Shown in pieces: positions 25,351-38,789 of a stretch of DNA of 41,387 bases. This DNA is from an uncultured Bacilli bacterium (lineage in GTDB: Bacteria; Bacillota_I; Bacilli_A; RFN20; CAG-826). The position numbers were made by a program, and so were the translations under genes. Below the pieces are notes generated by a model, which worked only from the letters and a program-made list of their open reading frames with translations, made no database searches and was not told the DNA's origin. Numbering within the stretch: position 1 is the stretch's first letter; the number at the start of each line of letters is the position of its first letter. The stretch covers positions 1-41,387 of the forward strand of contig CALVSI010000003.1 in NCBI GenBank assembly GCA_944358985.1, given 5' to 3'.

Positions 25351-25426
25351 GGCCTTCTAGTGTAAGGGATAACACATCGATCTCCTAAATCGAAAACTAC
25401 GAGTTCGATTCTCGTGAAGGCCGCCA
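25351..25426 (+). tRNA. tRNA-Arg (anticodon CCU)
   Basis: The cloverleaf is complete. Acceptor stem GGCCTTC pairs with GAAGGCC, the D stem is GTGT/ACAC, and the anticodon stem TCGAT/ATCGA has loop CTCCTAA with anticodon CCT at 25384-25386. The T arm is ACGAG-TTCGATT-CTCGT, with discriminator G and an encoded CCA. It reads AGG codons. It lies 7 bases after the hydrolase stop and marks the left edge of the accessory island. Confidence 0.97.
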
Positions 25427-25437
25427 TTTTGGAAACC

Positions 25438-25468
25438 ACCTATAATGTTATATATTATAGGTTTTTTT
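25438..25468 (+). terminator. intrinsic terminator after tRNA-Arg
   Basis: A 9-bp perfect stem (ACCTATAAT with ATTATAGGT) and a 7-base loop are followed by a run of T. It ends the tRNA and the upstream operon transcript. Confidence 0.85.
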
Positions 25469-25600
25469 ATCAAATCGTATACGTCGTTAATTAACACCCA
25501 TTTAAAAAATAAATAAAGTTTAGTGATGAAAAATTAATATTAAACTTAACTTAATCTCATATCGTGGGTTGAAATCTCTCATCACGGAAAATCACGAAGT
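25469..25600. other. non-coding flank of the IS66 remnant
   Basis: No gene is seen. The stretch from about 25555 to 25600 (CTCATATCGTGGGTTG, then CTCATCACGG) repeats CTCAT twice and could be the worn 3' non-coding end of the insertion sequence. No terminal inverted repeat could be matched to a partner. Confidence 0.35.
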
Positions 25601-25768
25601 TTAAATTAATTTTGCAATATCTTTTGAATAAGGTAATAATTCATCTATTGGTTTAGTTTTTATATTTGTAAGAACATATTTTAAGTATCGATATGGATCT
25701 AGACCATTGATAATTGCAGTGTTAAAGGAGCAGTATAGGGTCTCGTTCCCATGGTTCCATTTTCTGAT
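25601..25768 (-). pseudogene. IS66-family transposase, C-terminal remnant
   Basis: The minus strand reads ETLYCSFNTAIINGLDPYRY, followed by LKYVLTNIKTKPIDELLPYS, and ends in a stop at 25601-25603. NGLDPYRYL and the (I/L)D-LLP ending are the hallmark of the IS66 transposase C-terminus. The frame is closed by an in-frame stop at 25769-25771, leaving 55 sense codons, and the catalytic DDE region is missing. It marks past transposition next to the tRNA. Confidence 0.85.
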
Positions 25769-25921
25769 TTAATTATTACTTATCAAACTAAAATCAACTT
25801 TTTGGTATAAAACGGCATTTGCTTTAAGAATTAACCGATTATGAGCCAATAAACACAAGCAATTGATTTTAGTCCCCAAAAGTTATATAATTGACGAGAA
25901 AACAGTTAGAGTGGTGAGAAA
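25769..25921. other. non-coding leader region of the Fic gene
   Basis: No further transposase homology or gene is seen. AT-rich sequence near 25886-25900 (TTATATAATTG) offers a possible -10 box, followed by GTGGTGAG as a modest Shine-Dalgarno before the Fic start. Confidence 0.35.
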
Positions 25922-26968
25922 ATGAAGAAATTTAATTACTCAAATTTAAAAAATAAAACATGGGATATTAAGATAATTAATTATTTGACTCAAATTCATG
26001 AAAAAAAAGGCAAAGAGCAATTGTTTTTAAAACAAAAGCCTGAAGAATTAGAAAAATTAGTTATTATTGCAAAGATACAAAGTACAGAATCATCTAATGA
26101 AATTGAAGGCATTAGAACTACTAATACTAGATTAAAACAACTTGTTAACGAAAAAACAACTCCTAAAAATAGAGCTGAAGAAGAAATTGCAGGATATAGA
26201 GATGCTCTAAATATTGTTCATGAAAATTTTCATTCAATACCTATCACTCCAAATTTTATTCTTCAATTACACAAAGTATTATTGTCTCATACACCAACTT
26301 CATATGGTGGAAAATATAAGAGTGTCCAAAATTATATTAGTGTGATTAATGAAAAAGGTGAATTGCATACTTTATTTACACCATTATCGCCATTCGAGAC
26401 GCCAATTGCTATGCAAGAATTATGTGATGAATACAATAGAACTCTTGGTGAAGGAATAGTAGACCCACTTATTTTGATTCCATTATTTATCCATGACTTC
26501 TTATGTATCCATCCATTTATTGATGGAAATGGAAGAATGTCAAGATTATTAACGACACTACTTTTATATCGTTCTGGTTATTATATAGGAAAGTATATTT
26601 CACTTGAAGCTAAAATAGCTAAGAATAAGGATTTATATTATAATGCATTATATGATTCTCAAATTGGATGGTATGAAAACGAAAATGATGCGACTCCATT
26701 TATAAAATACTTATTGAGTACAATTGTTAGTGCATATAATGATTTTGAGGAAAGAGTAGAATTAATATTTGATAAAAAATCTAGCATTGAAGTTGTAAGA
26801 ATGGCAGTTAATTTTAAATTAGGAAAATTTACAAAGATGGATATACTAGAACTTGTACCTTCATTATCATCAACTAGTATTGAAAGAAGTTTAAAGAAAT
26901 TATGTGACTTAGGCGAAATAAGAAAAAAAGGCGTTGGTAAGTCAACATATTATATTAGATTAAAATAA
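25922..26968 (+). CDS. Fic family protein (Fic_N - Fic - winged helix)
   Basis: A 348-residue protein. The Fic core HPFIDGNGRMSR starts at His197, with all catalytic and phosphate-binding residues present, so AMP-transfer (AMPylation or deAMPylation) activity is expected. The inhibitory motif S58-NEI-E62-G63 precedes the core, making this a class II, self-inhibited Fic protein. The C-terminal 80 residues look like a winged helix-turn-helix (FTKMDILELVPSLSSTSIERSLKKL), typical of the DUF4172/Fic-HTH group. Target is unknown. No antitoxin gene is adjacent. It sits in an accessory island with IS debris. Confidence 0.9.
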   Translation: MKKFNYSNLKNKTWDIKIINYLTQIHEKKGKEQLFLKQKPEELEKLVIIAKIQSTESSNEIEGIRTTNTRLKQLVNEKTTPKNRAEEEIAGYRDALNIVHENFHSIPITPNFILQLHKVLLSHTPTSYGGKYKSVQNYISVINEKGELHTLFTPLSPFETPIAMQELCDEYNRTLGEGIVDPLILIPLFIHDFLCIHPFIDGNGRMSRLLTTLLLYRSGYYIGKYISLEAKIAKNKDLYYNALYDSQIGWYENENDATPFIKYLLSTIVSAYNDFEERVELIFDKKSSIEVVRMAVNFKLGKFTKMDILELVPSLSSTSIERSLKKLCDLGEIRKKGVGKSTYYIRLK

Positions 26969-27061
26969 TATTAACTTGGTTTTGTATTAAAATTATTTTT
27001 GGATATTTTGTCGTATTATACCTAAGTGTCACGACAGCCATCATTAACGAGTTAAAAGAAA

Positions 27062-27119
27062 AGAATAGTTTCGTAGAAAACCAACATTTTCGACCGTTGT
27101 TTTCCAACAAAACTATTCT
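27062..27119. repeat. 24-bp imperfect inverted repeat
   Basis: The arms 27062-27085 and 27096-27119 are complementary at 20 of 24 positions around a 10-base spacer. The outermost ten base pairs (AGAATAGTTT with AAACTATTCT) are perfect. It is not followed by a T-run, so it is not a standard terminator. It may be a worn mobile-element end or a structured RNA. Confidence 0.75.
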
Positions 27120-27280
27120 GACAATTACAAAGAAGCTCAAGGTAAGAGAATCTAGCGAAGATTTGATTCACATTTTATGCACATCTTTTTTTGCTAGGCA
27201 TCAATGAATCAAAGATACAAAGTTGCAAAATGAAAATAAAAAAGTATTAAACAGATGTTAATTTGTATATTGCGGGTTTA

Positions 27281-27355
27281 ATTGTGAAAAATGTGAAGCA
27301 TAGTTTTAGCATATTCGCCTGTACATTATCTCAAATACGTAGAATATTTCACAAT
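27281..27355. repeat. palindrome-flanked 75-base element
   Basis: ATTGTGAAA (27281-27289) and TTTCACAAT (27347-27355) form a perfect 9-bp terminal inverted repeat enclosing 57 bases. With one mismatch the pairing extends to 12 bp. Miniature mobile element or structured RNA are both possible. Confidence 0.45.
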
Positions 27356-27403
27356 AATTTACTATCTTCGAATTATGTTTGTATTTTTATATTTAAAATA
27401 ATG

Positions 27404-27437
27404 TCGACAAAACTATCAGTTTGGAGAAAAATATCGA
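27404..27437 (+). repeat. 34-nt structured repeat, copy 1
   Basis: The unit begins TCGACAAAACTATCAGTTT and ends TATCGA. It matches copy 2 at 32 of 34 positions. It contains an inner hairpin AAACT-atc-AGTTT and an SD-like GGAG. In this copy the outer pairing TCGACA/TATCGA has a mismatch. A 7-codon reading frame starts at the overlapping ATG and ends TGA. Confidence 0.85.
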
Positions 27438-27478
27438 TGTTAATATTGATTTTATCATGATTATCATTATAATTATTA

Positions 27479-27512
27479 TCGACAAAACTATCAGTTTGGA
27501 GGAAAATGTCGA
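27479..27512 (+). repeat. 34-nt structured repeat, copy 2, in the ATPase leader
   Basis: This copy has a perfect outer stem TCGACA/TGTCGA, the inner AAACT-atc-AGTTT hairpin and GGAGG between them. Its end is three bases before the ATPase ATG. The Shine-Dalgarno thus lies within the stem-loop element, so folding could control ribosome access. Confidence 0.85.
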
Positions 27513-27515
27513 GAT

Positions 27516-28844
27516 ATGTTTAGCAGAGATTTATATTTAAAAAGGCTAATAGAAAAGCAAAACAACGGATTAGTAAAAATTATCACTGGAATAAGAAGAT
27601 GTGGAAAATCATTTTTGCTGAATAATATTTTTTATAATTATTTGGTAAACGAAAAACACATTAATCCAAATAATATAATCAAATTTGCTTTTGATAATGA
27701 AGAAGACATTCTAAAACTTGATAAATACGATAAGAATAGAAAAACATTGAAAAAACTTGGAAGACAAGTTCTGATTGATAGTCAAAAGTTTCTAACTTTT
27801 ATTCATGAACAAAGCAAGGATAATGATCATTATTATCTTTTGTTAGATGAAATACAAAATCTTGAAAATTTTGTGCGTGTTTTAAATTCATTTATATATA
27901 AAGGAAACTTTGATATTTATGTCACTGGAAGTAATTCAAATTTACTTTCTAGTGAAGTAGATACGGAATTTGGAGGAAGAGGAGATAGGATACATCTTTT
28001 GCCACTTTCGTTTTTAGAATATCTTTCAAATGTAGATTTAGATAAAAGAGATGCTTTGGATCAATACATTCGATATGGAGGCATTCCTTTGGTTCAACTT
28101 CAAATCAACGATGATGAAAAAACTCAACAAGCCATCTCGATTGTAAAAGAAACATATTTAAAGGATTTAAAACTAAAACATCAAAGGTTAAATCAAAATC
28201 GCTTGGATGAAACACTAAGCGTTATTGCATCGATGATATCAACACAAATAAATCCAACCAAAATCGAAAATACATTCAAAAGTGTTTATCATATTAATAT
28301 AACAAATGATACAATAGCAGACTATATCAATTGGTTTGAAGAAGCTTATTTGATTAATAAAGTACATAGATATGATGTTAAAGGTAGAAAATATATAGGT
28401 TCACCATATAAAATTTATTTTGAAGATATAGGCATCCGAAATGCAATATTAAATTTTAGAGAAATTGATGAGACAGACTTGATTGAAAACATTGTTTATA
28501 ATGAATTGCGTTATCGTGGTTTTGCGGTTGATGTAGGTGTAGTGAAAATTAAAGTCAAAACAAATTGTTTTGATAAAAATAATAAACCAATTTATGCTGA
28601 AAAAGATACTGAAGTAGACTTTGTAGCAAGAAAAGGTTTAAAAACCTATTACATACAGGTGGCTCTACAAATTGATACACCCGAAAAAAAAGATCAAGAA
28701 TATTTAGCAATAAAAAATATACCTGAATCATTTAAAAAAATAATTATTGTCAAAAATGAAGGTAAGTTTTATTACACAAAAGAAGGTTTTTTAAGAATTA
28801 GTTTATTAGACTTTTTGATGAATTTAGATTCTTTAGATTGGTAA
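27516..28844 (+). CDS. AAA-type ATPase with DUF4143 domain
   Basis: A 442-residue member of the AAA_14/DUF4143 ATPase family. The start MFSRDLYLKRL is typical, followed by Walker A GIRRCGKS (25-32), Walker B YYLLLDEIQNLENF, and the sensor-like VTGSNSNLL. A C-terminal DUF4143 region contains a nuclease-like fold core (TEVDFVARKGLKTYYIQV). The family is extremely common in anaerobes and is often duplicated. Its cellular role is not established. The ATG lies 13 bases after GGAGG; an ATG three bases after the Shine-Dalgarno opens only a 5-codon frame. It is likely horizontally mobile. Confidence 0.88.
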   Translation: MFSRDLYLKRLIEKQNNGLVKIITGIRRCGKSFLLNNIFYNYLVNEKHINPNNIIKFAFDNEEDILKLDKYDKNRKTLKKLGRQVLIDSQKFLTFIHEQSKDNDHYYLLLDEIQNLENFVRVLNSFIYKGNFDIYVTGSNSNLLSSEVDTEFGGRGDRIHLLPLSFLEYLSNVDLDKRDALDQYIRYGGIPLVQLQINDDEKTQQAISIVKETYLKDLKLKHQRLNQNRLDETLSVIASMISTQINPTKIENTFKSVYHINITNDTIADYINWFEEAYLINKVHRYDVKGRKYIGSPYKIYFEDIGIRNAILNFREIDETDLIENIVYNELRYRGFAVDVGVVKIKVKTNCFDKNNKPIYAEKDTEVDFVARKGLKTYYIQVALQIDTPEKKDQEYLAIKNIPESFKKIIIVKNEGKFYYTKEGFLRISLLDFLMNLDSLDW

Positions 28845-29013
28845 AATTAAATAAACAAAAATACAAATAAAATATATTTATGAAATATTTTTTTGCTTAA
28901 ATATAATGATTAAAAATTTTACTGCAAAATAAAAAACACACAATTAACTTTGTTAAATATAAATGCATTTTGCTTAAAAAAATCAGTAGAAGAATTTGTT
29001 AAAAAAAATTTGA

Positions 29014-29042
29014 TTGCAAAGGTTTAAAAATGCTTTTATTAT
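29014..29042 (+). promoter_or_regulatory. promoter of the glucan-binding lipoprotein gene
   Basis: TTGCAA (29014-29019) and TATTAT (29037-29042) are separated by 17 bases. The predicted start of transcription is near 29049, immediately upstream of the LacI-type operator. Confidence 0.65.
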
Positions 29043-29055
29043 GAAATTAAGAAAA

Positions 29056-29073
29056 TGCTTAAACGTTTAAGCA
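29056..29073. promoter_or_regulatory. LacI/GalR-family operator
   Basis: A perfect 18-bp palindrome, TGCTTAAACGTTTAAGCA, with the central CG typical of LacI-family operators. It lies just downstream of the predicted transcription start, where a bound repressor blocks RNA polymerase. The likely ligand is the LacI-type protein encoded at 30660-31451. Confidence 0.85.
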
Positions 29074-29101
29074 AGGCGATTAAGCTAATGGAGGAAAGCT
29101 A

Positions 29102-30604
29102 ATGAAAGCGAAAGTATTTAAATTTTTGCCACTTGTGTGTGGGCTTCTTCTTGCTGTCGGATTAGTAGGATGCGATCCGGTTGGAACAACATCTAATTCG
29201 ACAGAACCAGGCCCTAACACATCCACAACACAACCTGGTCCTGAAACACATGTTGTAAGTTATTATGATGGTGAAACTGTTATTCACACCGAAAATGTAG
29301 TTGATGGAGAAACCGCTCCTGAATGGGACCCAACTACTACAATCACCGATAAACAATTTTTTGGTTGGTTTGGTGAGCCAACATTAACACATGAGTATGA
29401 TTTTACTCTTCCTGTAACAGACGATTTATCAATATTTGGTTCGTTTGTCGGTTATCAAGATGATACACGTCATTGGGCACTTGCTGGAAGTGGTGCTACC
29501 GAATTGTTAAGACAATCAAATTGGGGTGTTGTCTATACAGATGCACATTATATGGAAGATAAATCCACTAGTGAAGAAAATATCTTTGTTATGGAAATGA
29601 ATCTTTTCGTTAATGATCAATTCCAATTTACAGATCCTGTTTATGATGAAGAAACCGAAACTTATTCATGGGGTCATCAACGTGGTGGTGGTTATTTAGT
29701 CGAACCAACTCGTGATGGTGTTGAATATTTCTCTGTCGGTGGCGGTTTAGGTTCTGATAATTATACTTCAAATATCACCGCTTTAGTGGAAGGACGTTAT
29801 AGATTTACATTAACAACTTATCCAGCTGGCGACTTCCAAAAAGATGACTCTCCAGAAACATATAATAATAGAAATTATTATGATACTCTTGAATGGGAAA
29901 GAATTGGCGAATCTACTGAAGTACAAGCCGAAACAACCACACAATTTTATTTAAAGGGTGAATTCATTACTGCCTGGGCAGATTTAAAAAATGATCATAC
30001 ATTAATGGTGGAAACTGATGGTGTCCATACATTAAACAACGTATATTTAAAAGCCGCAGATCAATTTATGTTTGCGTCAATTGTTACCGATACTGAAACT
30101 GGAGAAACAAGTGTTGGTAATGAATATATTAGAGGATCAAATTTAAGTGAAGAAAGCAAAACATTAGTAACTGGCGAATCTAATATGAAAGTTGTCGAAG
30201 ATGGTTATTATAATTTCAGTTATGATTATGATACTAAGACATTAACAGTTACTAAAAATGATTCCTATGTTCCAGCAGAAGCATCATATTATGTTGATGG
30301 TAACTTTGGTGGAAGAAGTTGGGGTATCGATGAAAATTATAAACTCGTTGCAAGTAGTGATGATCCAGAAGTGTATGAATTAAGTGCACCTATTACAGTT
30401 AGTGCTGCAGGTGAACAATTAGGTATTCAATTCTACAATGCAGAATTAACTTCTCCATATGTTGATTTCTTTGGTTCGGCATATGTTGCAGTAGAAAGCG
30501 AAGCATACGATTTAAGTGCAACAAACATTTCATTTAATACACCAGGAAGTTACAACATTTCTATTAATACATATTCACACATCATTACTATTACAGTAGC
30601 ATAA
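29102..30604 (+). CDS. carbohydrate-binding-like surface lipoprotein
   Basis: A 500-residue lipoprotein. The signal peptide ends LVGC with lipidated Cys24. A Thr/Pro/Ser linker follows (27-48). Next is an InlB-like (Flg_new) beta repeat (about 51-116, VSYYDGETVIHTENV to LSIFGSF). Three related beta domains come after it (about 124-270, 280-386 and 394-500), each with a strand of the type DQFQF or EQLGIQF and ending in a GxYxFxxxY strand. This resembles starch-binding SusE/F-like modules, a visual inference. It leads the maltodextrin module under a LacI-type operator. GGAGG precedes the ATG. It probably captures alpha-glucans at the cell surface. Confidence 0.75.
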   Translation: MKAKVFKFLPLVCGLLLAVGLVGCDPVGTTSNSTEPGPNTSTTQPGPETHVVSYYDGETVIHTENVVDGETAPEWDPTTTITDKQFFGWFGEPTLTHEYDFTLPVTDDLSIFGSFVGYQDDTRHWALAGSGATELLRQSNWGVVYTDAHYMEDKSTSEENIFVMEMNLFVNDQFQFTDPVYDEETETYSWGHQRGGGYLVEPTRDGVEYFSVGGGLGSDNYTSNITALVEGRYRFTLTTYPAGDFQKDDSPETYNNRNYYDTLEWERIGESTEVQAETTTQFYLKGEFITAWADLKNDHTLMVETDGVHTLNNVYLKAADQFMFASIVTDTETGETSVGNEYIRGSNLSEESKTLVTGESNMKVVEDGYYNFSYDYDTKTLTVTKNDSYVPAEASYYVDGNFGGRSWGIDENYKLVASSDDPEVYELSAPITVSAAGEQLGIQFYNAELTSPYVDFFGSAYVAVESEAYDLSATNISFNTPGSYNISINTYSHIITITVA

Positions 30605-30620
30605 TAAAATAAAACGAAAA

Positions 30621-30652
30621 ACGGGTGTAGTTAACCTTCTTGCTACACCCGT
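30621..30652. terminator. intrinsic terminator between convergent genes
   Basis: A 10-bp perfect stem (ACGGGTGTAG with CTACACCCGT) surrounds a 12-base loop. It lies between the lipoprotein gene and the convergent LacI gene. The A-rich flank before the stem gives the minus strand a T-rich tail, so it can serve both. Confidence 0.8.
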
Positions 30653-30659
30653 TGAATTA

Positions 30660-31451
30660 TTAATCAATTAAATATTGATGAGTATCTACATCATCGCGAT
30701 TAATAGCGAAATTTAAAGCCTTGATAATCGCATCAAATTTAAATTTATTATCGATATTTAAATAACTATGTTCAATATTGATAGATGTTAAATATTTATC
30801 TAATTCGCTATTTAAACAAACAATTGTTGTTTTGTTATTATTAATCGCATTTTGTAAAGATTGAAAACTATCTATAAAATAAACATTCGCTTTACTAGAT
30901 AAAAAATTTATTATTTTTTCATCCTTATAAGGAAGAGATAAATAAATCGTGTTGTTATTTTTTATTTCATTAAAAGAATTGTTGATTTCAAAAAATAAAT
31001 TGTCATCTATAAAACAATCAACAGAAATAAGTGGAATAAAATTTAATTCGCCTAATTGCTTAAAAGTTTGTTTATCTACCCGATAGGTTATAATTGCATC
31101 AACATAATTATATTTAGCAATCATATTATTTGGAGCAATTATGATATTGTATTTATAAGGACGCAAATAAGTGCATAGTTGATTAATAAAATTTAATACT
31201 TCAGCACGATAGATGGAAAAATCGTTATCGCCATAAAAAAATAAAATGTTATGGCTTTCGCCAGTCGCTAATGAACGAGCATAAGGATTTGATCTATACA
31301 TGTAAAGATTTGCAATTTGTAAAATTTTCTGTTTAGTGGAATCAGGAATTCGTGAATTAGCTTTATTATTTAAGACATAAGAAACAGTTGCAACGCTTAC
31401 ATTGCATATTTTGGCAATATCGAGCATAGTAATTTTCTTCTTATTATTCAT
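30660..31451 (-). CDS. LacI-family transcriptional regulator (short)
   Basis: A 263-residue regulator. The N-terminal helix-turn-helix (TMLDIAKICNVSVATVSYVLNN, about residues 9-30) and hinge helix (NPYARSLATG) are standard. The effector-binding domain is about 70 residues shorter than usual and diverged. It probably represses the glucan genes through the palindrome at 29056 and responds to a maltodextrin. It is divergent to the GH13 gene. No Shine-Dalgarno is seen; TAGAAT lies eight bases before the ATG, again suggesting a leaderless message. Confidence 0.85.
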   Translation of the reverse strand: MNNKKKITMLDIAKICNVSVATVSYVLNNKANSRIPDSTKQKILQIANLYMYRSNPYARSLATGESHNILFFYGDNDFSIYRAEVLNFINQLCTYLRPYKYNIIIAPNNMIAKYNYVDAIITYRVDKQTFKQLGELNFIPLISVDCFIDDNLFFEINNSFNEIKNNNTIYLSLPYKDEKIINFLSSKANVYFIDSFQSLQNAINNNKTTIVCLNSELDKYLTSINIEHSYLNIDNKFKFDAIIKALNFAINRDDVDTHQYLID

Positions 31452-31498
31452 TAAAAAATATTCTAACTTATTACATTAATTTATTAAAGGAAACAATT

Positions 31499-33220
31499 AT
31501 GGAAATTGCAGCATTAAAACACGTAAGTGATTCAATTTATTCTTTTCCTTTATCAAATAATGAAATCGAAATTCGACTTTTGACAAAAAAAGATGATGAT
31601 ATTAAAAAAGTCGAGCTTGTTTATAACGAAAAGTATAAATTTCATGAAGGTGTAAAACATAAAAGAATAAATAAAAAATGTGATGACGGAATTTATGATT
31701 ATTACATTACAAGAATCAAATTAAAAGATAAACGCTTTGCGTATGTTTTTAAATTGACTCTTGAAAATAACGAAGAATATTATTTTAGCGAAAGCGGTGT
31801 TAGTAAAGAATATGATATCGCAAAAGGATATTATGATTTTTTTCAAATATCTTATATAAATGAATTAGATACAATAAAAATAAATAAGAAATTACAAAAT
31901 AGAGTATTTTATCAAATATTTGTTGATCGATTCTATAAAGATAAAAATAACAATAATCCACGAATCAATATCAAATGGGGTGATAAAGTAGATTCTAAAT
32001 CCATTGCAGGTGGAACATTAAAAGGTATCGAAGAAAAACTCGATTATTTATCTAGTCTAGGCATCAATGCAATTTATTTAACTCCAATATTTTCTGCGGA
32101 TTCTAATCATAAATACGATACGATAGATTATTATAAAGTCAGTAGAGATTTTGGTGATGAATCTGATTTGCATTCTTTAATTAAAGCTATTCATGAAAAA
32201 GGGATGATTGTTTTATTAGATGGTGTATATAATCATGTTTCAAGATCATTTCCGTTTTTTATAGATGTTATCAAAAACGGTGCAAAATCCAAATATTTTA
32301 ATTGGTTTTTCATTAAAGGCAATAAAGTTTTTGAAGAAAAAATGAATTATGAGACATTTGCCTCGTGTTATTATTTGCCGCGTCTAAATCTTAATAATTT
32401 AGAAGTTCAACAATATATTTTAGATGTTGGTAAATATTATGTGAAAAATTACCAAATAGATGGATATCGATTAGACGTTAGCGATGAAATTCCACATGCT
32501 TTTTGGACTAAATTTAAAGCAGAATTAAAAACTATTAAAAATGACATAATTTTATTAGGTGAAAATTGGCATAACGCTCACGCATTTTTAAACAGCGGCT
32601 TAGAATTTGATAGCATCATGAATTATGCTTTCACCAAAGAAGTTTTAAATTATGTCGCGTACAACAACACTAATGCTTTGGATTTTAAAAATAGATTAAT
32701 TAGCAATTTATTTAGATATAAAGGAAATGTAAATTATAACTTATTGAATTTAATTTCTAGTCATGATGTAAATCGTTTTTTAGATGAATGTAATAACGAT
32801 GTCGATAAATTTTTAATTGGATATGCAATTCTTTTTACATACATTGGTGTTCCCTGTATTTATTATGGTGATGAGATAGGAACCGATGGTGGTTATGATC
32901 CTTATAATCGTGCTTGTTTTAATTGGAATGAAAGTGAATGGAATTACAAGATTTTTAACACTATTAAAAAGTTAATACAAATACATAAAGATGAATCTAT
33001 TAATGAATTAGAAATAAATATAAATGCAAAAGATGACATCTTATATTTATCTAGATTTAATAAAACAAATAACATAACTTTAATTGTAAATTTATCAAAC
33101 TCTGATAAAAAACTTAATATTTCAGACGAAATATTAGTTCAAAATAACTATTCAAATAACATTCTTCATAATAAAGGTTTTGTCATAACAAAGGAGGACA
33201 GCAATTATGAAAAATATTAA
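31499..33220 (+). CDS. cytoplasmic GH13 alpha-glucanase (neopullulanase/maltogenic-amylase-like)
   Basis: A 573-residue glycoside hydrolase family 13 enzyme. An N-terminal beta domain (about 1-120) precedes the TIM barrel. Conserved regions are LLDGVYNHV (Asp241), DGYRLDVSDE (nucleophile Asp326), LLGENWHN (acid Glu355) and SSHDVNRF (Asp423). No signal peptide is present, so it cleaves imported maltodextrins or cyclodextrins inside the cell. The domain order fits neopullulanase/cyclomaltodextrinase. AAAGGAAAC precedes the ATG. It overlaps the binding-protein gene by 14 bases. Confidence 0.92.
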   Translation: MEIAALKHVSDSIYSFPLSNNEIEIRLLTKKDDDIKKVELVYNEKYKFHEGVKHKRINKKCDDGIYDYYITRIKLKDKRFAYVFKLTLENNEEYYFSESGVSKEYDIAKGYYDFFQISYINELDTIKINKKLQNRVFYQIFVDRFYKDKNNNNPRINIKWGDKVDSKSIAGGTLKGIEEKLDYLSSLGINAIYLTPIFSADSNHKYDTIDYYKVSRDFGDESDLHSLIKAIHEKGMIVLLDGVYNHVSRSFPFFIDVIKNGAKSKYFNWFFIKGNKVFEEKMNYETFASCYYLPRLNLNNLEVQQYILDVGKYYVKNYQIDGYRLDVSDEIPHAFWTKFKAELKTIKNDIILLGENWHNAHAFLNSGLEFDSIMNYAFTKEVLNYVAYNNTNALDFKNRLISNLFRYKGNVNYNLLNLISSHDVNRFLDECNNDVDKFLIGYAILFTYIGVPCIYYGDEIGTDGGYDPYNRACFNWNESEWNYKIFNTIKKLIQIHKDESINELEININAKDDILYLSRFNKTNNITLIVNLSNSDKKLNISDEILVQNNYSNNILHNKGFVITKEDSNYEKY

Positions 33221-34709
33221 ATTTTTATCATTATTATTAGGCAGCGTCACACTTTTAACTTTAGCGGGGTGTGATCCTAATATTACAACTAGTAATCACA
33301 ACACATCTTCTAATGGACAAACAACAATAGTTGATCCATCAGAAGATGATCCCGTATTTGCAAAATTTACTGGTCAATTAGAAGAAGGCGTGACAGTAAA
33401 AGTTGTTGAAAATGATACCGCAATTAAAATGGGATATTTAGATGAACTAATCGCAGCGTTTAATGAAGAATATAAAGAATATGGAATAACCGCGGTCGAT
33501 GCAAACCAAGGTGAATTCGCTGATTTGCCAAATACAGGTCCTTATGGATATGGTCCGGATGTTGTTTATCAAGCTAATGATGTTTTAATGGGCTGGGTTG
33601 ATGATAAACATATAACTCCTATTCCCACTCATTTAATAGAAGCATATCAAAGCGAAGTCATACCAGATACCGCACATGATGCATATAAATCAGTGGTTAA
33701 TAATGTTAATTATACTTTTGGAGTTCCGGTAAATATTCAATCACCATTATTATATTATCGAAAAGATTTACTCCCCTCAGATTGGCAAGAAACTTGGGAC
33801 GATAACAATAATGATATTCCAGATATGGTAGAAAATATTGTTGATCTTTATGAATTTTCTAAACAATATCATGCAAAAGATGATACAAAATATGGTTTTG
33901 AATTTTCATTGAATGATTTTTATTTTACAAGTGGATATTTATTTAGTTATGGCGGATATTTATTTGGTAATAATAATCGTGATGACACTGATATTGGCTT
34001 ACATAAAGGCAATGCTAAATATGGTGTACAAATTTTAAGACAATTTGCAGCAGAAATGTCAGCTGCTTGTCGAGATGATAGTGCTAAACTTGCAATTTCA
34101 GGTGCGATGGCAAGCGGAAAATATTTTGCAAGTGTTACCACTCCTGATGTTAGAAGTGTTATTGTTGATGCACTAGTGGATACATATAAAAGCGAACAAG
34201 GATTATCACAAGATGAAGCAATTACAAAAGCTGAAGAAAATGTTGTTGGTGTTCCATTCCCTGATTTACCTAGCAATGGTGATTTAATTAACCCAAGCGA
34301 TGATTATATTGAATGTAAACAAATGGGCGGAATTAATGGATATGCGATGTCTAGTTACACTAAATGTCCAAATGCTTCACTTGCTTTTATTAATTTTGCA
34401 ACATCCTATAAGATGGTCAAATTAAGAGAACAAATTATTCAAATAGCACCTTGTAGAAGCGATGTCGCAGAAGAAAGCACACAATTATCACAACAATTAT
34501 TTGAAAGAACCACAAATGGAAGTATTGTTTTAATGCCATCCATAAAAGCAATTAATCAAGTTTGGACACCTGCTGGTTCCTTTATGGCGGATGTTGCTGC
34601 AGATCCAAGCCGTGGTGGAAACGCTAAATATGACACACTTGATAAAATTCAAGCAGCGTTAGAACAATTATCTAATGACATTTATGATGCAATTCATCTG
34701 CTTAATTAA
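33207..34709 (+). CDS. maltodextrin-type ABC transporter substrate-binding lipoprotein
   Basis: A 500-residue family 1 solute-binding protein. The signal peptide ends LAGC with lipidated Cys22, then a short Ser/Thr linker. The mature part shows the two-lobe pattern of MalE-type proteins: LIAAFNEEYKEYGITAV, GPDVVYQANDVLMGW, PLLYYRKDLL and INGYAMSSYTKCPNASLAFINF. It delivers alpha-glucan oligosaccharides to the permeases encoded downstream. AAAGGAGG precedes the ATG, inside the end of the amylase gene, so the two are coupled. Ligand assignment comes from context. Confidence 0.92.
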   Translation: MKNIKFLSLLLGSVTLLTLAGCDPNITTSNHNTSSNGQTTIVDPSEDDPVFAKFTGQLEEGVTVKVVENDTAIKMGYLDELIAAFNEEYKEYGITAVDANQGEFADLPNTGPYGYGPDVVYQANDVLMGWVDDKHITPIPTHLIEAYQSEVIPDTAHDAYKSVVNNVNYTFGVPVNIQSPLLYYRKDLLPSDWQETWDDNNNDIPDMVENIVDLYEFSKQYHAKDDTKYGFEFSLNDFYFTSGYLFSYGGYLFGNNNRDDTDIGLHKGNAKYGVQILRQFAAEMSAACRDDSAKLAISGAMASGKYFASVTTPDVRSVIVDALVDTYKSEQGLSQDEAITKAEENVVGVPFPDLPSNGDLINPSDDYIECKQMGGINGYAMSSYTKCPNASLAFINFATSYKMVKLREQIIQIAPCRSDVAEESTQLSQQLFERTTNGSIVLMPSIKAINQVWTPAGSFMADVAADPSRGGNAKYDTLDKIQAALEQLSNDIYDAIHLLN

Positions 34710-34730
34710 AAATAATAAGGGGGAAATTTT

Positions 34731-36083
34731 GTGAAAAGATTTTTTCGCCGACTTGGCAAAAATATTGTAGATTTATGGACTAATTTTATTAACTTTTTTA
34801 AAGTTGCAAATTTAAATGTCAAAGCGAGCATGTGTTTAATGGGTGCTGGCCAATTTATGTATCGCCAAATCGGCCGTGGAATCTTGTATTTAGGTATAGA
34901 AATATTAGGTATTTTATTTTTCTCAATATATGGATTTCAATGGCTAGTTGGGTTGATAACTTTAGGCACAGTGGAAGCCGATCCATGGACTGGATTAGAA
35001 GGCGATAATTCTGTTATATTTATGCTTTTAGGATTAATGAGTTTAGTCTTACTAATTTTATTTATTGCTTTATATATTTTAAATGTTCGTGATGTTTACA
35101 ATACTTCTAAATTAGTGCTAAGAGGTGAAAAACCCAAGACTTTTAAACAAGATTTAAAAGATTTATTAGATAAAAAATTTTATAAGACAGTTTTATTTCT
35201 TCCTATATTAGGCACTATTATTTTTAGTCTTTTGCCCATTGTATTTATGATTTTAATTGCTTTTACAAATTATGGCGAACCATATATTCCACCAGTATTG
35301 GTTGATTGGATAGGACTAGAAAATTTCATTAAAGTCTTTTCAATTGGTGATATCGGTCCAACATTTTTTAAGATTTTGGGATGGAATATTTTATGGGCTA
35401 TCGCCACAACATTGTTAAACTATGTTTTAGGATTATTATTAGCGATATTGTTAAATAAAAAGATAGTTAAAGGCAAGTTCTTTTGGCGATTATTTCCTAT
35501 TTTAGCCTACGCTATTCCTGGATTTATTACACTCACCGCTTTTAAATTTATGTTTTCACAAGGTGGTCCGATTAATTTTTATATCGAACAGGCTGGTGGA
35601 AGTGCTCTTCCTTTTTTAACTAAAGATGGTACTTGGTGGGCTAGACTTATTGGTTTATTAATTAATGCTTGGTTAACAGTTCCTAGCGTTATGCTTTTGG
35701 CAACTGGAATTTTAAGCAATATCAATAATGACTTATATGAAGCCGCTAAAATTGATGGTGCAGGAGCGTTTAGACAATTTAAAGATATTACTCTTCCTTT
35801 TGTCGTGTTTGCTACAACGCCAACACTTATCACCTCTTTTATTGGTAATTTTAATAATTTTGGTGTCTTTTATTTTTTAAGAAGTGATGTTACAAGCAAT
35901 GGTTATTTTGTTTCTAATGACACCGATCTTTTAATCAACTGGCTTTATCGTTTGTCAATTGATAATAAGTATTATTCTATAGGTGCTGCAATATCTTTAA
36001 TTATTTTTATAATTACCTCTGCAATTTCTTTAATCATTTATATTAAATCTCCAGCATATAAAAAGGAGGATACATTTAGATGA
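34731..36083 (+). CDS. malF: maltodextrin ABC transporter permease, MalF type
   Basis: A 450-residue membrane protein starting at GTG (34731) after GGGGG. It has additional N-terminal helices as in MalF/MdxF proteins, a BPD_transp_1 domain with about six helices, and the ATPase-contacting EAA loop EAAKIDGAGAFRQFKDITLP. It forms the translocation pore with the MalG-type permease. The TGA stop overlaps the next ATG by 4 bases. This TGA shows that the standard code is used. Symbol by similarity. Confidence 0.9.
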   Translation: MKRFFRRLGKNIVDLWTNFINFFKVANLNVKASMCLMGAGQFMYRQIGRGILYLGIEILGILFFSIYGFQWLVGLITLGTVEADPWTGLEGDNSVIFMLLGLMSLVLLILFIALYILNVRDVYNTSKLVLRGEKPKTFKQDLKDLLDKKFYKTVLFLPILGTIIFSLLPIVFMILIAFTNYGEPYIPPVLVDWIGLENFIKVFSIGDIGPTFFKILGWNILWAIATTLLNYVLGLLLAILLNKKIVKGKFFWRLFPILAYAIPGFITLTAFKFMFSQGGPINFYIEQAGGSALPFLTKDGTWWARLIGLLINAWLTVPSVMLLATGILSNINNDLYEAAKIDGAGAFRQFKDITLPFVVFATTPTLITSFIGNFNNFGVFYFLRSDVTSNGYFVSNDTDLLINWLYRLSIDNKYYSIGAAISLIIFIITSAISLIIYIKSPAYKKEDTFR

Positions 36084-36940
36084 GATCGTTTTCTAATAGC
36101 AAGACAATGAATCGAAAAGTCAAAAAAGTATTAGTTGCTATAGCCATCTATTGCATCTTAATAGTCATATGCGGCGTATTCTTTTTTCCTTGTCTTTGGT
36201 TAATATTATCTAGTTTTTCTTCAACTGGTTCTTTATATGATATTGAAGGATTTTTTCCATCTTCATTTTCTTTTGATGCTTTTATAAAACTATTTACAGA
36301 TACATCACAATACAACTATCCGATGTGGTTACTTAACACATTAATTATTGCAATTTGTAATTGTATATTATCAACACTATTGATTATTGGTACAGCTTAC
36401 GCTATTTCATATTTCCAATTTAAAGCAAGAAAAAGTTTAATGAAAGGTGCTTTAGTATTATCAATGTTTCCATCTTTTATGGGGATGACAGTTATTTATA
36501 TTTTGATGACTCAATTTAATTTTGTGAATAATATTTGGGGTTTAATATTAATATATTCTTGCACCGCACCACTAGGATATTTAGTTCAAAAAGGTTTTTT
36601 TGATACAATTCCCCAATCTATTTATGAAGCGGCTAAAATTGATGGTGCAACCAATGCAAGAATTTTTACAACAATTACTCTACCATTAGCAAAACCGATT
36701 ATTGTTTATACTGCATTAACTAGTTTTGCTTGGCCTTGGAGTGATTTTATATTACCTAAATTACTTCTTATCAACAAAGATAATTGGACAGTTGCCGTTG
36801 GGTTGATGCAATTACAACAAAATGAATTTGCAAGATTTGCTGCTGGCAGTGTTTTTATTGCTATTCCAATTGTTATCTTATATTTCTTTTTAGTTAAATA
36901 CATGGTTAATGGCATGACAAGTGGTGCTGTGAAAGGATAA
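36080..36940 (+). CDS. malG: maltodextrin ABC transporter permease, MalG type
   Basis: A 286-residue permease with about six helices and the EAA loop EAAKIDGATNARIFTTITLP. The final GMTSGAVKG is the characteristic MalG C-terminus, which contacts the ATPase. It pairs with MalF. An AAAGGAGG precedes the ATG, overlapping the malF stop. Symbol by similarity. Confidence 0.92.
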   Translation: MRSFSNSKTMNRKVKKVLVAIAIYCILIVICGVFFFPCLWLILSSFSSTGSLYDIEGFFPSSFSFDAFIKLFTDTSQYNYPMWLLNTLIIAICNCILSTLLIIGTAYAISYFQFKARKSLMKGALVLSMFPSFMGMTVIYILMTQFNFVNNIWGLILIYSCTAPLGYLVQKGFFDTIPQSIYEAAKIDGATNARIFTTITLPLAKPIIVYTALTSFAWPWSDFILPKLLLINKDNWTVAVGLMQLQQNEFARFAAGSVFIAIPIVILYFFLVKYMVNGMTSGAVKG

Positions 36941-36945
36941 TTATT

Positions 36946-38679
36946 ATGGCTAAAGTTAAGTTAATTGATGTTTCTAAAGTTTACAAAGGTAATGTTCGTG
37001 CAGTTTCTGATTTTAATTTAGAAATTGAAGATGGCGAATTTATTATTTTTGTTGGACCTTCTGGATGTGGAAAATCAACGACTCTTAGAATGATTGCGGG
37101 TTTAGAAGAAATAACATCAGGAAAAATATATATTGGTGATACCTTAGTGAACAACATCGAACCTAAAGATCGAGACATTGCAATGGTGTTTCAAAATTAT
37201 GCTTTGTATCCTCATATGAGTGTTTTTGATAATTTAGGTTACTCATTAAAATGCCATCACGAAAAGAAAGAAGTTATTAAAGAAAAAGTCGAAAAAGTAG
37301 CAAAACTATTAAATATTCAAGAATTATTAGACAGAAAACCACGTGAATTATCTGGTGGTCAAAGACAGCGAGTAGCGTTAGGAAGATGCTTGATAAGACA
37401 GCCTAAAGCTTTCTTATTTGATGAGCCTCTTTCTAATTTAGACGCTAAATTAAGAGTACAAATGAGAAGCGAAATATCTAAACTTCATAAACAAGTTCAA
37501 GGGACATTTATTTATGTTACACATGACCAAACTGAAGCGATGACAATGGGGGATAGAATTGTCGTCATGAAAGATGGCTTTGTTCAACAAATAGATACAC
37601 CAGTTAACTTATATGAACACCCTGTCAATATTTTTGTTGCGACATTTTTAGGTTCTCCACAGATGAATATTTTTAAAGTCAAACTTAATAAAGATAAATT
37701 ATATTTTAGTGATCATATTTATTTAAAATTAAGCGAAAAAACCAAAAATAAAATGATAGATGGTTATGATGGAAAAACATTAAGTTTAGGAATCAGACCA
37801 AGTGATTTTGATATTGCTAATAAATCTAGTTATGACTTTTGTATTGAAAAAATCGATTTAGTTGAAAAGTTAGGTAATGAGACTTTGTTATATTTAACTT
37901 TACCAGGAAGAGAAGAAAGCACAATTGTTTCTTTAAAATTAGATATGGCGGATGATTTAAAAGGTCCAATTTATTTAAAGGTTAACAAAGATAAAATTCA
38001 TTTATTTAATGAAGATGATGAATCAATATTAAAAATCAATGACTACAATTTTATTCCTAGCAAAATGTCTTTAGAAAACGACATTCTTCATATTGATAAT
38101 AAATATCAAATTGATAATTTTTCTAATAAGTGCGTTTTATCAGAAATAAAACAACTTGACAATGGATATATTCGTATTGCATCTGATGCATTTAAAACCA
38201 AAAAATTAAGTAAAGATGATTATGTTATAGAAGTGGAAGTGCGCGCAAAAGATGTACGTTCAAAATCTAATGTTTATTTTGCTAAAAAAGTAAAAGACAA
38301 TATTCGTATAACCTTTACATGTCCAAAAGATGAACATTATGAGCTAGGCGATAAAGTGAAATTATATGTCCCAATAAATGAAATAAGTATTTGTGATAGT
38401 GATAAAAATGTTTTGATGGTGGATGAAAATATTGTAAAACCAATAATCGATGCAAATATTGAGATGTATGGTAAAGAATACTATTTAGTAACACAAGATA
38501 AACAATTTTCAAAAAACAATAAATATCTACTAGTGGAAAAAATATACGATTTAAATTCTAAAATGTTATTAAGAGTCATTAATCAAAAAAACGAGACACT
38601 TACTTTAAAAATTAATAAAAATAACGATTTCTTTAATGGATTAATGATTTATACAAAATATAAAAAAGCAAAAAAATAG
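36946..38679 (+). CDS. malK: MalK/MsmK-type ABC ATPase with long C-terminal extension
   Basis: A 577-residue protein. The first 370 or so residues are a complete sugar-importer ATPase: Walker A GPSGCGKST (37-45, Lys43), Q-loop, signature LSGGQRQRVALGR, Walker B AFLFDEP and THDQTEAMTM, then MalK-type OB/TOBE domains (SLGIRPSDFDI). About 200 further residues follow, with beta-rich character resembling a second TOBE-like unit and no match recalled. Family members are usually 360-380 residues. It is the last gene of the module, 5 bases after malG. The extension could bind a ligand or regulator. Confidence 0.93.
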   Translation: MAKVKLIDVSKVYKGNVRAVSDFNLEIEDGEFIIFVGPSGCGKSTTLRMIAGLEEITSGKIYIGDTLVNNIEPKDRDIAMVFQNYALYPHMSVFDNLGYSLKCHHEKKEVIKEKVEKVAKLLNIQELLDRKPRELSGGQRQRVALGRCLIRQPKAFLFDEPLSNLDAKLRVQMRSEISKLHKQVQGTFIYVTHDQTEAMTMGDRIVVMKDGFVQQIDTPVNLYEHPVNIFVATFLGSPQMNIFKVKLNKDKLYFSDHIYLKLSEKTKNKMIDGYDGKTLSLGIRPSDFDIANKSSYDFCIEKIDLVEKLGNETLLYLTLPGREESTIVSLKLDMADDLKGPIYLKVNKDKIHLFNEDDESILKINDYNFIPSKMSLENDILHIDNKYQIDNFSNKCVLSEIKQLDNGYIRIASDAFKTKKLSKDDYVIEVEVRAKDVRSKSNVYFAKKVKDNIRITFTCPKDEHYELGDKVKLYVPINEISICDSDKNVLMVDENIVKPIIDANIEMYGKEYYLVTQDKQFSKNNKYLLVEKIYDLNSKMLLRVINQKNETLTLKINKNNDFFNGLMIYTKYKKAKK

Positions 38680-38789
38680 ACAACTTTTAAGTTTTTTTGT
38701 GCAAAAACCCATTAAAAAATTAAAATTATAATTATTCAAAAAAAGTTTTACAATAAATATAAATAATATATGTTTAAAGGAGAACAATA

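Follow-up and report, generated by a model that had tools for sequence, protein, structure and literature searches.

In gene control of the lac, gal and lambda type, the promoter is bracketed by two operators separated by whole turns of the helix, while archaeal Orc1/Cdc6 on origin recognition boxes and plasmid Rep on iterons bring an AAA+ core plus a winged helix to repeated sites. Here we describe a locus that resembles both, in a 41,387-nt stretch of DNA from an uncultured Bacilli bacterium (contig CALVSI010000003.1; this whole stretch is referred to as the window), where two copies of a 34-bp element precede the gene of an ATPase with AAA_14 and DUF4143 domains. As in the looping systems, the sites are paired around a promoter at whole-turn spacing; the predicted binder is however the product of the controlled gene itself, an AAA+ ATPase that carries a nuclease-like domain, and the site sequence differs for each ATPase group. 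The likeness to Orc1/Cdc6 and to Rep on iterons lies in the fold of the window ATPase and in iteron-like arrays ahead of distant family members, whereas here the sites are on the promoter, the C-terminal domain is nuclease-like and there is no sign of an origin or replicon.

The gene belongs to PDC-S01 (COG1373, AAA_14-DUF4143), an unvalidated single-gene candidate for phage defence that is reported to rank fourth in abundance among prokaryotic defence systems (PMC12988326). A survey of the rumen found it more often than any other single locus (PMC13356809). We found no description of upstream repeats or conserved upstream sites for DUF4143 or COG1373 genes in the open-access literature searched. 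Among defence loci, the DNA-binding protein BrxR represses its own promoter by binding to repeats there (PMC9122601). The arrangement would be shared with BrxR/CapW, which act in BREX, CBASS and further defence systems, in that a defence-locus protein sits on repeats at its own promoter, the proposed binder in our case being the ATPase. BrxR is however the product of a separate WYL-domain regulator gene, whereas no separate regulator is conserved here, and the window gene is AAA_14-DUF4143 only, with no WYL-domain regulator next to the site. Moreover, the BrxR repeats are two 11-bp arms, as opposed to two 34-38-bp palindromes at whole-turn spacing.

We consider it probable that the 34-bp units are phased operators around the promoter, bound by the ATPase itself and repressing its gene. 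The presence of paired DNA sites flanking the promoter is the well-supported part. Copy 1 (27404..27437), the proposed upstream operator, is located 5' of a -35-like hexamer TTGATT (27446..27451), and copy 2 (27479..27512), the proposed operator across the transcription start, lies 3' of the -10 hexamer TATAAT (27468..27473); the promoter TTGATT-16-TATAAT thus sits between the copies, with copy 2 over the predicted start at ~27480. The ATPase gene follows at 27516..28844, all features being on the + strand. The copies are direct repeats, identical at 32/34 positions and separated by 75 bp from start to start, and the 23-nt core of the element has exactly two matches in the 1.17-Mb genome at up to three mismatches, with none expected from shuffles of the window. 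Repeat comparison and genome search thereby bear out the earlier note, made from the letters of the window, which had described two near-identical units 75 bp apart. A dispersed repeat (REP/MITE) was ruled out by the genome-wide pattern search, as the genome holds only the two copies. In 58 related genomes the element was found solely 5' of the AAA_14-DUF4143 ATPase, and in the sister genome G003, where the -35-like hexamer is kept and the copies are spaced by 76, the cores carry no substitutions (0/46; 0/23 per copy), compared with 27/204 across the upstream DNA.

The layout recurs across the ATPase family, at about half of the homologues, with start codons of homologues set by alignment. At a repeat score of at least 15, twin repeats precede 48 of 90 homologues, against one of 259 unrelated genes of the same genomes and none of 89 downstream regions; A+T-rich DNA increases chance repeats, which these controls address; one control gene (L119) has a period-40 tandem repeat that is strong and unrelated. 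In a second set, drawn from named genomes independently and by protein only, with a few loci common to both sets, twins were present at 34 of 78 homologues (38 of 78 at the lower threshold of 13.5). This set takes in metagenome-assembled genomes named Bacteroidales, Bacteroidaceae, Sphaerochaetaceae and Thermoguttaceae, and the twin layout is seen in several phyla. The recurrence upstream of homologues in both sets is what the earlier note anticipated in proposing that the unit travels with the family. The repeat sequence is on the other hand group-specific, with TCGACA...TGTCGA around CCTCAGTACTGAGG, TTGAAT and ATTCAA enclosing GGTGCATATGCACC, TGCAAGAACTTGCA types, and others. Promoters matching at least 10 of 12 positions occur between the copies at 26 of 57 loci, relative to 2.9 in shuffled spacers.

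Homologues are also present on 237 plasmid and 18 phage records. A Roseburia plasmid (L275) has twins at 74 bp, recognised by eye and of low identity, and a gut phage contig (L283) has clear twins at a spacing of 76, while most other named plasmid and phage homologues display no repeat clearly exceeding shuffles. A search for the exact TCGACA-type motif in viral contigs returned none. In L283 a TACTTTTG box, which we take to fit the Bacteroidota -7 consensus, lies immediately 5' of copy 2, and the twin-site layout apparently extends to a different type of promoter.

A typical unit consists of an outer arm of ~6 bp, 4-5 bp of A/T-rich sequence, an inner palindrome of ~14 bp, a further A/T-rich segment and the second outer arm. 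Within a locus the outer arms pair at 3.97 and 3.69 of 8 positions, compared with ~2.5 between loci (0/5000 shuffles as high), and palindromy of the whole unit averages 22.4/38, relative to 17.8 in shuffles searched for their centre in the same manner. In the window, the outer TCGACA/TGTCGA pairing that the earlier note ascribed to each copy is present in copy 2, but in copy 1 the 3' arm reads TATCGA and the pairing is imperfect. In G003 both 3' arms are changed (CATCGA and TATCGA). Copies within a locus are 86% identical, compared with 66% to the nearest protein relative and 56% to other loci, the within-locus match being partly due to selection, as loci were picked for having repeats.

The 57 non-redundant twins are spaced by 52-53, 63-67, 70-77 or 83-86 bp, with one at 100, and the clusters correspond to about 5, 6, 7 and 8 helical turns. 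The score for a ~10.5-bp periodicity is 27.5, whereas 5000 jittered sets, a null that ignores relatedness, average 2.4 and reach 11.7 at most. Since at least 11 switches between spacing classes are needed on the protein tree, several independent length changes have ended near whole turns. Proteins sitting on one face of DNA would be expected to give such spacing, RNA would not. The upstream regions of L050 and L056 seemingly hold three copies rather than two, at 52-53-bp spacing.

The ATPase has 442 residues, with AAA_14 (1.1e-28) and DUF4143 (3e-15) both above the Pfam cut-off and no other domain, and the PADLOC model PDC-S01 matches residues 1-436 at an E-value of 2.3e-93, which places it in the family. 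NCBIfam and PHROGs gave no match for the protein, and a sequence search of the PDB gave no close solved relative. An AlphaFold2 model (mean predicted local distance difference test score 92) comprises an AAA+ core, a winged helix and a C-terminal domain, and its nearest solved folds, with moderate TM-scores, are the archaeal ATPase 2fna, Orc1/Cdc6 on origin DNA and Apaf-1/CED-4. Residues 227-302 (28194..28421) are modelled in the order helix-helix-helix-strand-strand, a predicted winged-helix region and the candidate DNA-binding part. The C-terminal domain (residues 305-442; 28428..28841), in which E330, E366 and Q381 are invariant and D368 is near-invariant, is read from motif and modelled fold, not from a database match, as PD-(D/E)XK nuclease-like. 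When similarity of operators is compared with that of protein regions, by partial correlation correcting for the rest of the protein, the hairpin 341-370 follows the operator sequence best (partial r 0.30), followed by residues 196-220 (0.15) and the winged helix (0.10), while residues 1-170 show none (-0.02).

We infer that the ATPase is the likeliest binder because no neighbour is conserved, the site is unique to this gene and its sequence follows the ATPase group; repression is suggested by copy 2 spanning the predicted transcription start. In the proposed arrangement, one operator lies 5' of the -35 and the other across the start, and the whole-turn spacing would place the bound proteins on one side of the helix, where they could make contact as the promoter is looped or wrapped. 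The ATPase would bind via its winged helix and nuclease-like part, somewhat like Orc1/Cdc6 on origin DNA. In the bound state it would shut its own promoter, so that little of a potentially harmful ATPase-nuclease is made, until infection or stress causes binding to be lost and the promoter to be released.

Several observations weigh against this scheme. Apart from the relatedness ignored by the jitter null, the association between winged helix and operator is weak, and that between protein and operator may reflect common ancestry. About half of the homologues have no detectable second copy, the pair at 100 bp is out of phase, and the DUF4143 group with the best Pfam scores (L213-L229) is almost devoid of upstream repeats. 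Nonetheless, the phased operator pair that recurs in the family would give the unvalidated PDC-S01 a first concrete handle, in the form of a candidate DNA ligand and a promoter location, and binding, self-repression and triggering become directly testable. The recurrent pair suggests that each such gene carries a private on/off switch, and group-specific sites may explain how many paralogues coexist in one genome.

The same sites could instead be operators for a separate host regulator or nucleoid protein, which we regard as unlikely, yet as deserving some weight, considering that operator-like position and palindromy are silent on the identity of the binder. Such a factor would however have to account for a site sequence that varies with the ATPase group rather than with the host and that is unique to its gene. 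The layout is moreover found in several phyla, the neighbour genes of homologues include no conserved partner, and one dedicated factor would be needed for each ATPase group.

A further possibility, to which we assign a rather small probability, is that the sites, whether paired or iteron-like, go beyond switching a promoter and are the DNA ligand that keeps the AAA+ nuclease-like protein in an inactive complex, of the Orc or Rep kind, at the gene encoding it, from which disturbance by an invader would free the active enzyme. If so, each gene would be self-contained, uniting sensor, switch and effector and having a private DNA key, and the presence of many PDC-S01 genes per genome without cross-talk would be explained.

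There is also a slim chance that the sites act in the replication, partition or recombination of some small mobile unit, and control the gene secondarily or not at all. This would suit the Orc1/Cdc6-like fold, the plasmid and phage records, the listing of COG1373 among horizontally shared genes (PMC10782964) and the iteron-like 23- and 33-bp arrays 5' of distant members. At a repeat score of at least 15, 22 of 51 distant DUF4143 loci have upstream repeats, as opposed to 4 of 259 controls, and these are mostly iteron-like tandem arrays with a period of 23 or 32-34. Besides the window ATPase, the source genome has four DUF4143 genes, and three of these have such arrays, each of its own sequence; they consist of about three tandem repeats of ~33-34 bp immediately 5' of the gene (L003:630-730, L005:680-790 and L006:670-765). 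On the other hand, the pair is centred on a promoter, and no conserved gene for replication or mobility accompanies it. Neither a second end nor a clean empty site was found; the comparison with sister genomes revealed larger rearrangements only, and a neat mobile element was rejected.

The earlier note had suggested, as one of its readings, that the units are a translational control leader that folds in the mRNA, with ribosome site and decoy frames tuning synthesis of the ATPase, a reading that now appears very unlikely. The translation features it listed are in place: GGAGG (27498-27502), inside copy 2 apparently by happenstance, is 13 nt 5' of the ATPase ATG at 27516, a decoy ATG at 27506 starts a 5-codon frame, and a 7-codon frame lies 3' of copy 1. 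Together with the complementary arms of copy 2, the GGAGG is what speaks for a leader. However, because the predicted promoter lies between the copies, copy 1 would be absent from its mRNA, and RNA folding of the copies is not clearly better than that of shuffles (z -0.5 and -1.3); judged by the predicted start, the locus thus lacks the hallmarks of a structured-RNA leader, an element within the transcript and folding above chance. A search of Rfam gave no match, and whole-turn spacing suits DNA rather than RNA. In G003 the decoy ATG is lost and the GGAGG of copy 2 has become GGAGA, and as the cores there are unchanged, the translation features drift while the core stays.

Finally, that copy 1 marks where a since-lost ATPase copy once began, as the earlier note ventured, or a chance local duplication, is scarcely credible despite the near-identity of the two copies, given that the phased pair is found at dozens of loci, with the same few spacings and unrelated sequences, and is no local accident.

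With respect to the surroundings, a tRNA-Arg(CCT) gene (25351-25426) is followed by a block of ~13 kb (25427-38789) that is absent at this site from the sister genome G004, where the match to 38790 begins within ~170 bp of the tRNA end; a second copy of the 3' end of tRNA-Arg(CCT) was sought in the window and none was found. Adjoining the ATPase is a Fic-family gene (25922-26968), which G003 lacks at this site but matches at 72% elsewhere; on plasmids of Ilyobacter and Moraxella the ATPase likewise has Fic genes beside it. Between the Fic and ATPase genes, positions 27056-27130 form an imperfect hairpin with 24-nt arms, of which a 97% identical copy opens contig G000:C17, and which may be a small dispersed repeat. 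G004 also holds a decayed ATPase remnant (L132; G004:C3:69059-69220) that retains the last 163 bp of the gene at 81%, with an element-like TCGAAAATAAGTTCAGTTTGGAAATATTTTTCGA recognised by eye. Lastly, a 70-bp segment at 25766-25835, which occurs as a single copy in the genome of the window, has at least five copies at 91-93% in G004.
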